A model generated the notes under the pieces. The model was given only the letters and a program-made list of their open reading frames with translations. It had not been told where the DNA came from and made no database searches. DNA of 64,000 bases, taken from positions 2,852,001 to 2,916,000 of the forward strand of contig NZ_CP071463.1 of NCBI RefSeq assembly GCF_017352095.1, read 5' to 3'. The position numbers and the translations under genes were made by a program. This DNA is from Natrinema longum. Lineage in GTDB: Archaea > Halobacteriota > Halobacteria > Halobacteriales > Natrialbaceae. Positions 19,002 to 23,094 of the stretch are shown piece after piece. Position 1 is the stretch's first letter; every line of letters begins with the position of its first letter.

Positions 19002-20555
19002 TTATGCGCCGACCCAGGCGTTCGTCGAGGCGACGGACGTGAACTGGATGTTCTCGTTCTCCTGCATGGTGATCTGCGAGCTGCCGGCACTCTCTCCGTC
19101 TTCGGCGACCGCGACGGAGGTGTGTTGCTCGTTGACGTTCTCCTGGGCGATGAACTGGTGTTGTACGATCGCCGCGCTCGCCGTCTGATCGCCGTCGTTC
19201 GTCTGCGTGGCGTTGCCGGCGTAATCGTACGACATGCCGGGGTTGGAGTCGCCCGCATTGCCGTCGATCGTCGCCGTCGTACTCGAGGTTCGGGTGATGT
19301 CGTCGGAGACGTAGCCCGGACTCGCGTAGACGTTGAGTGCGTCGGCGTAGGCGATCTGAGCGTTGTAGTTTTGCTGGTAGGCCATCTGGACGGCCGTGGC
19401 ATCGCTGCCGTTCTGTGCGATCGCCATGGCGCTGTTTTGCAGGTTGATGTTTTGCTGCTCGACCTCCTGCTCTTGGGCCACGCCGGCGGTCGCCGTCTGC
19501 TCACCCCCGTCGTCGCTTTTCTTGTCGGGTTTGTGCGTGTCGGTGTGCGTCGAGAGGACGTCACTGCTCACGTTACCCGCGGTCGCGATGTTCATCCCGG
19601 CGCTCGAGGCCAGCAGATTCGTGGCGTCGGCACTTCCGAGCTGTTCGTTGAGGTTGCTCTGGTCGGTGAACTGAATCGCCGTGGCGGTGCTGTTCTCGCC
19701 GACCGCGATGGCGACGGCACCGCGCTGTTCGTTGAGGTTCGCCTGCTCGACGTCCTGTTGTTGCGTAACCGTCGCGTCAGCGTCCTGGCCGGTGGACGGA
19801 CCGTGATCACCCGACTTGTCCTTCTTGTGGCCGAACTCGCCGTCGCCGAGGTAGACGTTGGACGCGTTGGCGACCCCCTCCTGGAGGTTCTCGTTGCGCT
19901 GGTAGGACTGCTGGACGGCGGTCGCCTCGCTGTCGTCGACGGCGAGGGCGAAGGCGGTACTCTGGTTGTTGTAGTTGACCTGAGCGACCTCCTGTGACTG
20001 GGTCACGGAAGCGAGGGCCTCCTGGGTGATCGTCTCGTCGTCACCCTTCTTGTCTTTGACCCCCCAGCCGTCGAACTGTTGGTCGCCGCCGTTACCGATG
20101 ATGATGTTGACGTCGCCGACGTCTTCGAACTGTGTTTGTGCGCTCTGCAGGCGACTCTCGGCGTTGGCCGACCCGCGCTGTTCGTTGTCGTTGTACTGGT
20201 TTGCCTCCTGAATGGCGGTTGCATCGCCACCGTCGATCGAGATCGACACCGCCGAGCCTTGCTCGTTGATGTTGACCTGATCGACGTCCTGATACTGGAT
20301 GACTTCGGCCGCGGAGTCGGCTTCGCCCTCCGCGTGCTCGTCGATATAGTCTTCGAGCGACTGCTCACCGAGGTCCGCCCCGAAAACCAGGTACAGCTCC
20401 TCGCCGTCCTCGAGCGCGTGGACCGTTCCGTTCTCGAGGTCGCCGTCGCCCCCCGCAGCGGCCGTCGGCACACCGGCCGCTACCATCGACAAGGCGACCA
20501 TACAGGCGATAAGGAGTGTCGTAGTTCGTGAGCGTCTCGTTGTCTTGTTTCTCAT
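19002..20555 (-). CDS. Secreted Q/N-repeat protein with curlin-like repeats
   Basis: 517 residues. A Sec-type signal peptide ends near residue 35 (hydrophobic core LLIACMVALSMVAAG, then TAAAGG). A short domain follows (GEELYLVFGADLG, about 52-63). Then come five repeats at about 83-138, 183-235, 262-316, 357-411 and 461-515. Each reads roughly V-x-Q-x-Q-x-V-x-Q-x-N-x-N-x-Q, an alternating A-x-A-I/V-A strand, ATAxQ, and a second Q-x-N-x-N-x-Q followed by A-x-A-x-N. The regular Q and N spacing resembles curlin repeats and predicts stacked beta-strands. Spacers are Asp/Lys/Gly-rich and differ in length. The function as an extracellular amyloid or adhesin is inferred. Two smaller proteins with the same motif lie on the other side of a 700-base spacer. 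Confidence 0.75.
   Translation of the reverse strand: MRNKTTRRSRTTTLLIACMVALSMVAAGVPTAAAGGDGDLENGTVHALEDGEELYLVFGADLGEQSLEDYIDEHAEGEADSAAEVIQYQDVDQVNINEQGSAVSISIDGGDATAIQEANQYNDNEQRGSANAESRLQSAQTQFEDVGDVNIIIGNGGDQQFDGWGVKDKKGDDETITQEALASVTQSQEVAQVNYNNQSTAFALAVDDSEATAVQQSYQRNENLQEGVANASNVYLGDGEFGHKKDKSGDHGPSTGQDADATVTQQQDVEQANLNEQRGAVAIAVGENSTATAIQFTDQSNLNEQLGSADATNLLASSAGMNIATAGNVSSDVLSTHTDTHKPDKKSDDGGEQTATAGVAQEQEVEQQNINLQNSAMAIAQNGSDATAVQMAYQQNYNAQIAYADALNVYASPGYVSDDITRTSSTTATIDGNAGDSNPGMSYDYAGNATQTNDGDQTASAAIVQHQFIAQENVNEQHTSVAVAEDGESAGSSQITMQENENIQFTSVASTNAWVGA
19011..20309 (-). repeat. Five degenerate Q/N-rich repeats in the coding sequence
   Basis: The five units of about 53-56 codons are similar at protein level and diverged at DNA level. 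Each is two half-units built on a Q-x-N-x-N-x-Q core. Linkers between units range from roughly 26 to 50 residues. Confidence 0.65.
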
Positions 20556-21257
20556 TGATCGTTTGATTTGTGTCGTGATTGTGATTTCTTGCTAGGTCTG
20601 TGCGTCGCAAACCCTCCTATCCCGATTACAGACTTTGTTATCTGTATATTTCCGCGGCGAAGAAGACTGATACCGAACTGAAGGGGGGCCTTACGCGATC
20701 AGTCTCGAGAGTGGCCCGAAACGCGACCGCCGGCACACTCGCTGAGACCCTCCCGGCACCACAGCAAACCCAGGTCCGATCGAAACCCCGGAAGCATCGT
20801 TTCTGCGGGACCGTCGCGACGCCGAGACTGTCGGAGTATTTGATCGGTAACTCGAGTAGCCGTTACGGAGCGGAAAGTTCGGGTTGGGATCGGCGAGAGA
20901 TCGAGTATACCGCCGGAAAACCCCCTCTCGAGCCGGAAAACACCCCTCCCCAGGGTCGGTACGAGTCCCAACTTCGGTATCTGGTACGGACGCCATACGC
21001 GATCGATAGTCTCGAATTTCGAGTCTGCGCTGAAACGATCGGTCAATTCGAGATAGGTATTGAAACGGTGCGGTCAACCGTTGCTATGGAACGAAACCAT
21101 GCCCCGTCTTCATATGGATCTCCGAAGTGAGGCTTAGTCGGGAGACACGCAGCGAACGGGAGGTTAACGGCGGCTACAGCCGACGAGCGGCAGCTATCCG
21201 TCGCATGCCGGCTCGGTAGCGTTACGTGTCTCTCGAAGCGATACCAAGATTCCAACT
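20556..21257. other. Divergent spacer between Q/N-repeat genes
   Basis: No credible gene is seen in these 700 bases; the open frames on both strands are Arg/Ser/Pro-rich. The left part holds the promoter of the leftward repeat gene and the right part must hold that of the rightward gene. A TTCATATGG motif at 21109-21117 recurs upstream of the third repeat gene. Confidence 0.5.
20641..20656 (-). promoter_or_regulatory. BRE/TATA promoter of the Q/N-repeat gene
   Basis: On the minus strand the sequence reads GCGGAAATATACAG, a purine-rich BRE followed by a TATA box. It predicts transcription from about 20620 and a 5' leader of about 65 nt before the ATG at 20555. Confidence 0.5.
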
Positions 21258-21734
21258 ATGAATGTGACACGGAACACGATCCTGACGCTCGTACTCGTCG
21301 CCAGCCTGCTGATGGTTGGCTTCGCCGGAACGGCAGCAGCAGGTGGTACCGCCGATACGGCCGAGACAGCAGACGTCGACGACGATGACGATGACGATGA
21401 GCAGGTCGCGGCAGCAGCTGTCGTCCAGAACCAAGAGGTCGCTCAGGTTAACGACATCGACCAGAACGCCGACCAGACTGCCGAGCAGGAGGCAACTGGA
21501 CTCGAGGTCGACGTCGAAATCGGAGACGACGACGATGAAACCGGTAATGACGCTACGCCCTCCGGAGACCAGCTCGAAACCCTCAACGACCATGAGGATG
21601 ATGGAGACGGATTCAACCTCGAGATCGGCACCACTGGTGACCAGACGGTAGAGCAGGACATCAGCCAGTCGGCCGAGGCGTCCAACACGAACTCACAGGT
21701 CGGCACTGCGTCCGCTGCCAACTTCGACTTCTAA
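21258..21734 (+). CDS. Small secreted Q/N-motif protein (paralogue 1)
   Basis: 158 residues. The signal peptide is MNVTRNTILTLVLVASLLMV, ending in TAAAGG. An Asp run is followed by one Q/N unit (VVQNQEVAQVNDIDQNADQ, then AEQEATGLEVDVEI). An acidic middle insert lies between this and a C-terminal Q/N unit (GDQTVEQDISQ, ASNTNSQVGTASAAN). The first and last parts align with the next gene and with single units of the 517-residue protein. I infer a minor or nucleating partner of the large repeat protein. A T-rich tract (about 21768-21773) follows the stop. Confidence 0.65.
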   Translation: MNVTRNTILTLVLVASLLMVGFAGTAAAGGTADTAETADVDDDDDDDEQVAAAAVVQNQEVAQVNDIDQNADQTAEQEATGLEVDVEIGDDDDETGNDATPSGDQLETLNDHEDDGDGFNLEIGTTGDQTVEQDISQSAEASNTNSQVGTASAANFDF

Positions 21735-22254: not shown

Positions 22255-23094
22255 ATGAGACGGACACTAACGGTACTGATGACGCTCGCTCTCGTCGGAA
22301 GCATGGCCTTCGTGGGCTTTGCAGGAATGGCTGCTGCAGGTGGCGGCCACCACGATGACAAGGCCGACGACAGCGGCGACGATAGCCTTGCGGCCTCGAG
22401 CGTCAGTCAGTCACAGACCGTATCGCAGACGAACGTGATCGAACAGAACGCCAGCCAGTTCGCCAGTCAGGACGCGACCGGGGTCGACATCGACCTCGAG
22501 GACGTCATGGACGATGGCGATGATGGTACTGATGGCGATGACGGTGAGAACGGTGTCGACGACGGTGAGGATACCCAAACCGGAATCCAGACCGTGACGT
22601 TCATTCGCGAAGAAGGCAATCAACCCTACGCTACGTTCGAATGGGATGGTGATGACGATGAGTTCGATCTAGAATCTAGTATGGGTCAGGGAGATAACAT
22701 CGACCTAACCCCTGGGGAAGCACGTGCCAGTGACGGCAATCCGCTGGACGCTACCTGGACCTTCGACCCACCGGGCGCGAGCGAAGCCCAAACGCCGGTC
22801 CGGGCCCTTGTGACCAATTCTGATGGGACGACGTGTACCTTCGAGTATGGAGACGCCCAACTGGAAGGGAGTGTTGAAGCATGTGAGCCGGACAACGGTG
22901 GCAACGGTGGCAACGGTGACAACGGTGGCGACAACGGCGACAACGGCGACGTCACCGATGGCATCGAAGGATCCGTCGGTAACCAGACCGTCAACCAGCT
23001 AGTCGAGCAGAACGCCGACGCGTCGAACTCGAACACGCAGAGCGCCAGCGCGAACGCCTTCAGTGGCGATCTGGCCGCGATGATCTCCGGCTGA
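22255..23094 (+). CDS. Secreted Q/N-motif protein (paralogue 2) with insert
   Basis: 279 residues from the ATG at 22255. The signal peptide (TVLMTLALVGSMAFVGFAGM, then AAAGGG) resembles that of the preceding gene. The N-terminal unit (SVSQSQTVSQTNVIEQNASQ, then ASQDATGVDIDLE) and the C-terminal unit (GNQTVNQLVEQNADASNSNT) align with the paralogue. Between them is a 130-residue insert with a beta-rich part, two Cys (TTCTFEYGD and EACEPD) and a G-N-G-D repeat run. The upstream frame extension is rejected since it is Arg-rich. Inferred role: accessory or capping member of the same extracellular fibre. Confidence 0.65.
   Translation: MRRTLTVLMTLALVGSMAFVGFAGMAAAGGGHHDDKADDSGDDSLAASSVSQSQTVSQTNVIEQNASQFASQDATGVDIDLEDVMDDGDDGTDGDDGENGVDDGEDTQTGIQTVTFIREEGNQPYATFEWDGDDDEFDLESSMGQGDNIDLTPGEARASDGNPLDATWTFDPPGASEAQTPVRALVTNSDGTTCTFEYGDAQLEGSVEACEPDNGGNGGNGDNGGDNGDNGDVTDGIEGSVGNQTVNQLVEQNADASNSNTQSASANAFSGDLAAMISG

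Follow-up and report, generated by a model that had tools for sequence, protein, structure and literature searches.

The Q/N pattern at positions 19002-20555 of the 64,000-nucleotide stretch of Natrinema longum DNA analyzed here (the window) is part of a gene cluster, which is absent from the first-pass annotation, an account of a single gene. The reading that we favor, and to which we would give an even chance, is that the protein encoded there, P0001, is the member with five units in a so far undescribed family of haloarchaeal secreted Q/N-repeat surface or matrix proteins, with two small proteins encoded nearby, P0002 and P0003, as its one-unit partners. The features, in window positions, are:

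19002..20555, minus strand: P0001, five-unit secreted Q/N-repeat protein, 517 aa (open reading frame, translation, homologues)
20556..20645, minus strand: upstream stretch, possible promoter or leader (DNA alignment of five Natrinema sequences)
20454..20555, minus strand: signal peptide of P0001, residues 1-34 (read from the sequence; conserved across homologues)
20322..20450, minus strand: conserved N-terminal region, residues 36-78, LYLVFGADLG..SLEDYI (homologue alignment)
20154..20318, minus strand: repeat unit 1, residues 80-134 (unit HMM)
19851..20024, minus strand: repeat unit 2, residues 178-235 (unit HMM)
19614..19787, minus strand: repeat unit 3, residues 257-314 (unit HMM)
19326..19499, minus strand: repeat unit 4, residues 353-410 (unit HMM)
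19014..19187, minus strand: repeat unit 5, residues 457-514, at the C-terminal end (unit HMM)
21258..21734, plus strand: P0002, secreted one-unit protein, 158 aa (translation, unit-profile match, own-genome search)
22255..23094, plus strand: P0003, secreted one-unit protein, 279 aa if translation begins at 22255, the likely start (translations, own-genome search)

The open reading frame of P0001, with an ATG start, is exactly where the first-pass annotation had placed it, and the description of the product as an archaeal secreted protein with five repeats is borne out by the reading frame, the signal peptide and the five units found with the unit HMM. The signal peptide is of the Sec type, with a basic start, a hydrophobic stretch and an A-x-A cleavage site, and ends ...TAAAGG. 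It is followed by the LYLVFGADLG..SLEDYI region, for which a search of the own genome returned no significant second copy, and then by the five units, each of ~57 aa, with D/G-rich linkers between them; Gln makes up 10.6% and Asn 8.3% of the protein, which is also rich in Asp and Glu. Tat export was rejected, since the RR at residues 7-8 is not followed by a Tat consensus and the homologue L037 has no RR, as was a lipobox at the conserved Cys18, which is placed within the hydrophobic stretch. This Cys (window 20502-20504, minus strand) is nearly invariant. Separately, ~90 bp of DNA directly upstream of the gene (GATAACAAAGTC plus leader) are conserved among the five Natrinema sequences aligned, the remaining intergenic DNA upstream being much less so, and window 20556-20645 may hold a promoter or leader element of the five-unit gene.

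Each unit is built from two related halves, and each half carries the motif Q-x3-Q-x-N-x-N-x-Q, with the two starts 27-28 residues apart (residues 89/116, 188/215, 267/295, 363/390 and 467/494 for units 1-5). The strict motif occurs 10 times in P0001, as compared with a mean of 0.003 and a maximum of 1 over 20,000 composition-preserving shuffles, so that the earlier observation of Q and N recurring at fixed spacing, twice per unit, holds. The units are 31-49% identical to unit 1, and the consensus of 47 unit sequences is QxAxAxVxQxQxVxQxNxNxQxxAxAIAxxxSxATAxQxxxQxNxNxQxGxAxAxN. The A-x-A-x-A stretches that had been described beside the Q/N motifs are indeed present after the first motif of every unit, although they are weaker in units 1 and 5. 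Homologues without conserved Q and N, which the annotation had named as grounds for abandoning its proposal, were not found; in an alignment of 56 non-redundant homologues the Q and N columns of the repeat are nearly invariant. Conserved and variable positions alternate along the strands, with mean entropies of 0.44-0.62 bits at the former versus 2.05-2.12 bits at the latter (0 of 5000 permutations). On the conserved face, Q, A, N, S, V and G account for 30, 24, 21, 8, 7 and 5 percent, respectively, and the variable face is acidic, with Glu foremost (E, T and V at 18, 11 and 10 percent). Because the alternation is so strict, the repeat is, as judged from sequence, a selected β-strand pattern with one face predicted to be buried.

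Five-unit homologues occur in 84 of the 391 genomes of the class Halobacteria, in 26 of 86 genera. There are 77 distinct proteins, mostly from Natrialbaceae, and all 77 have exactly five units; the linker joining units 2 and 3 is as short as 4 residues in some of them. Named records with a homologue come from Natrinema, Natrialba, Natronoglomus, Salinadaptatus and Natrarchaeobius, and plasmid records from Natronorubrum, Natrononativus, Haloterrigena, Haladaptatus and Halomicrococcus. Sampling 393 genomes across the phylum yielded 14 matches, all of them in the same family. No bacterial relative was found in plasmid and phage collections or in one protein scan of genome contigs, which reaches close relatives only, and a viral origin was rejected, as there is no relative in IMG/VR or in phage records. 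No family could be assigned to P0001 by searching its sequence against Pfam, NCBIfam, PHROGs and PDB, and searches of the literature available to us found no paper on the family. One Natrinema homologue, L005, has a TGA within the match and may be a decaying copy; a second copy, 59% identical, is located elsewhere in the same genome.

The C-termini of the 77 proteins fall into three types: 58 stop just past unit 5, 10 end in a PGF-CTERM anchor and 9 in a tail that is mostly Lys-rich. The PGF-CTERM (L060-L068, L072-L073) and Lys-rich (L074-L083) variants are largely in separate clades, with eight of each group forming a clade. PGF-CTERM proteins are processed by an archaeosortase and retained at the cell surface, so that a surface location is expected for at least the PGF-CTERM-bearing five-unit versions.

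P0002 and P0003, recognized here for the first time as secreted one-unit relatives clustered with the five-unit gene, are transcribed divergently from it. Their half-repeats are split, by an Asp-rich stretch in P0002 and by a long insert in P0003. A profile of P0002-type proteins matches the unit profile with 97.4% probability (E 1.3e-11) and, when run on the whole 3.59-Mb genome, matches only P0002, P0003 and P0001. The same arrangement recurs widely: among the matches listed when 121 genomes of the family were searched, 132 are in genomes with a five-unit gene, and 101 of these lie no more than 10 kb from that gene (median 2.2 kb), in 61 of 72 genomes, counts that are approximate, since the signal peptide is part of the profile and is all that some matches cover. 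Of the family genomes listed, 20 lack a five-unit gene, and not one of these is among the listed one-unit positives. Some of the clustering could be due to tandem duplication. Farther out the genes are ordinary, encoding RadB, CBS-domain, CAP-domain, lycopene-cyclase-like, nickel-insertion and CDC48 proteins. In Natronorubrum bangense, too, the small genes, the five-unit gene, the gene of a conserved protein and RadB follow one another in this order. An assignment of P0002 to NCBIfam NF042931 was rejected (23 bits against a cut-off of 80), the similarity looking like one of Asp-rich composition. The long insert between the two half-repeats of P0003, which has no Pfam match, includes a possibly folded segment (IQTVTFIREEGNQPYATFEWDGDD...), and the small proteins of L034 and L066 have comparable inserts. 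At L048:3589-4269 a gene for a small repeat protein extends into masked bases, and its C-terminal part is not readable.

The cluster probably encodes a haloarchaeal surface or matrix system in which a Q/N-ladder β-solenoid co-assembles with small subunits. Each half-repeat would be one coil, ~27 residues long, of a β-solenoid or β-arch stack, with Ala filling the interior and ladders of Gln and Asn side chains holding the coils together, as in curli and FapC; linkers rich in D and G, like the inserts of P0002 and P0003, would extend outward into the brine as loops. With open edges, P0001 and the one-unit proteins would be able to stack on one another. The resulting fiber, at the cell surface or in the matrix, would lie outside a single membrane and would need Sec export and no outer-membrane pore; in the PGF-CTERM versions this body would have a tether to the cell. 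It is in this manner that we infer the solenoid, its stacking, the co-assembly, an amyloid or fiber role and a role in biofilms. As a functional-amyloid-like matrix system of haloarchaea, independent of curli and Fap, with a five-unit scaffold, insert-bearing one-unit partners, Sec export, Gln/Asn ladders in molar salt and no dedicated pore or known chaperones, the proposal is a tentative one, possible but short of an even chance. Counting against a fiber is the constancy of the unit number at five, which one would expect of a defined monomer more than of a fiber subunit free to vary.

The main rival, rather unlikely in our judgment, is accordingly a finished β-solenoid that does not polymerize, with each P0001 folding by itself into ten coils, whether free or anchored, and serving as an adhesin at the surface or as a protein of the envelope, and with the one-unit proteins acting as caps or being paralogues of unrelated function. 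Beyond the invariant unit count, it draws strength from the fact that every unit retains its own identity across species, from the existence of anchored versions and from the observation that most known β-solenoid domains are non-polymerizing (PMC10192328). However, the 58 homologues that end a few residues past unit 5 have no obvious C-terminal cap, and one-unit relatives adjoin the five-unit gene in most genomes, an arrangement that suits co-assembly.

Structure prediction bears on a further possibility, an archaeal counterpart of FapC with few repeats, a Greek-key-like arch and long disordered linkers. AlphaFold2 calculations on full-length P0001, using 15 rows (14 homologues), placed long β strands in all units at low confidence (pLDDT 39, pTM 0.42), with the best blocks inside units at pLDDT 55-66, and a two-unit query (units 2-3) with 44 in-phase rows, also of low confidence (pLDDT 43.7, pTM 0.26), brought no gain. 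The strands would suit the proposed β stack, and the low confidence, which counts against that reading, keeps both stacking and strand pairing predictions. A Foldseek comparison of the low-confidence P0001 model with 350,542 PDB chains ranked Pontibacter CsgA (8c50) first (E 0.037, probability 0.01) and FapC (9u4u) third (E 1.7, probability 0.01); no match is significant at any rank, and we regard the ranking of CsgA and FapC as a hint, not evidence. The third rank, the long D/G-rich linkers between repeats and the conserved Asn and Gln would suit a FapC counterpart, but the unit profile has no match at E up to 10 among the PDB chains, 9u4u included, and the half-repeat structure within each unit differs; we consider this alternative improbable.

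That P0001 might be a disordered, low-complexity halophilic secreted protein, its repeat a by-product of composition, is suggested by the abundance of Gln, Asn and acidic residues and by the low AlphaFold2 confidence. This reading, now very improbable, is largely refuted by conservation, which alternates strictly; the motif count is far above that of the shuffles, and the number of units is fixed.

As for the curlin likeness put forward in the first-pass annotation, the alternating Q/N core stands as an analogy, while membership in the curlin family does not. The curlin signature comprises N-x-Ψ-x-Ψ-x-Q twice, with QX10Q spacing and a repeat of 22-23 aa (PMC10192328), and what P0001 has is QX9Q inside a half-repeat of 27-28 aa; a curlin trait that the family does share, seen in both the entropies and the face compositions, is the alternation of conserved Q, N and small hydrophobic residues with variable polar residues between. 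The search with the Pfam curlin model that the annotation had recommended came back negative: PF07012 has 0 matches in the own genome, with the E. coli control positive, and none of the 15 homologues searched gave a curlin match at E up to 1. Profile-profile comparison (hhalign) with E. coli CsgA and CsgB likewise gave no similarity (probability 0.1% and 0.4%). The remark that no CsgG is visible near the gene extends to the whole genome, with 0 matches to PF03783 and positive controls. Archaea have no outer membrane and CsgG is therefore not expected. By sequence the family thus appears unrelated to bacterial curli, and "curlin-like" holds only as an analogy. A true curlin, that is, a CsgA/CsgB taken up from bacteria with later adaptation to salt, could be argued from the alternating core, from S-x-A-x-A-x-Q stretches that resemble the E. 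coli motif and from large and small subunit genes lying together, but, already disfavored by the missing PF07012 and CsgA/B profile similarity, by the spacing and by the lack of CsgG, it is scarcely credible.

The preferred reading, a secreted Q/N-repeat family with one-unit partners, is of interest because biofilms of Haloferax volcanii stain with thioflavin T and Congo red and the protein responsible was not identified (PMC4180959); the P0001 family provides a concrete, conserved, secreted candidate with partner genes in a related lineage. If fibers do form, then Gln/Asn-ladder polymers would have arisen independently in archaea and would work at near-saturating salt, the residue logic and not the curli lineage would be what makes the fiber, and the repeat would be a naturally salt-stable material.

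Among known systems, the sheath amyloid of Methanospirillum and Methanosaeta (PMC6242892, PMC10593813) is also archaeal, extracellular and amyloid-like, a likeness by description alone, and is, unlike P0001, the tubular sheath of methanogens. FapC of Pseudomonas (PMC12822426) resembles P0001 in having few imperfect repeats with conserved Asn and Gln, joined by long variable linkers; P0001 differs in its five units, each with two half-repeats, and in having no outer membrane to cross. With CsgA and CsgB the family shares secreted imperfect tandem repeats and an alternating core in which Gln, Asn and small hydrophobic residues abound, and, as in curli, larger and smaller repeat genes adjoin. It differs from them in its core, Q-x3-Q-x-N-x-N-x-Q versus N-x-Ψ-x-Ψ-x-Q, with a different motif order, in a half-period of 27-28 aa versus 22-23, in its long linkers and in the lack of CsgG. 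Dueholm et al. (2012) mention a single archaeal protein, unnamed in their main text, that was a match of a curated CsgA/B repeat model and has curli-like, regularly spaced repeats (PMC3521004); the resemblance had thus been glimpsed before, and the protein may or may not be a member of the P0001 family. The same paper describes CsgA homologues that reach 22 repeats (PMC3521004), and whereas repeat number varies among those homologues, the P0001 family is fixed at five, which is also the number of repeats in E. coli CsgA.
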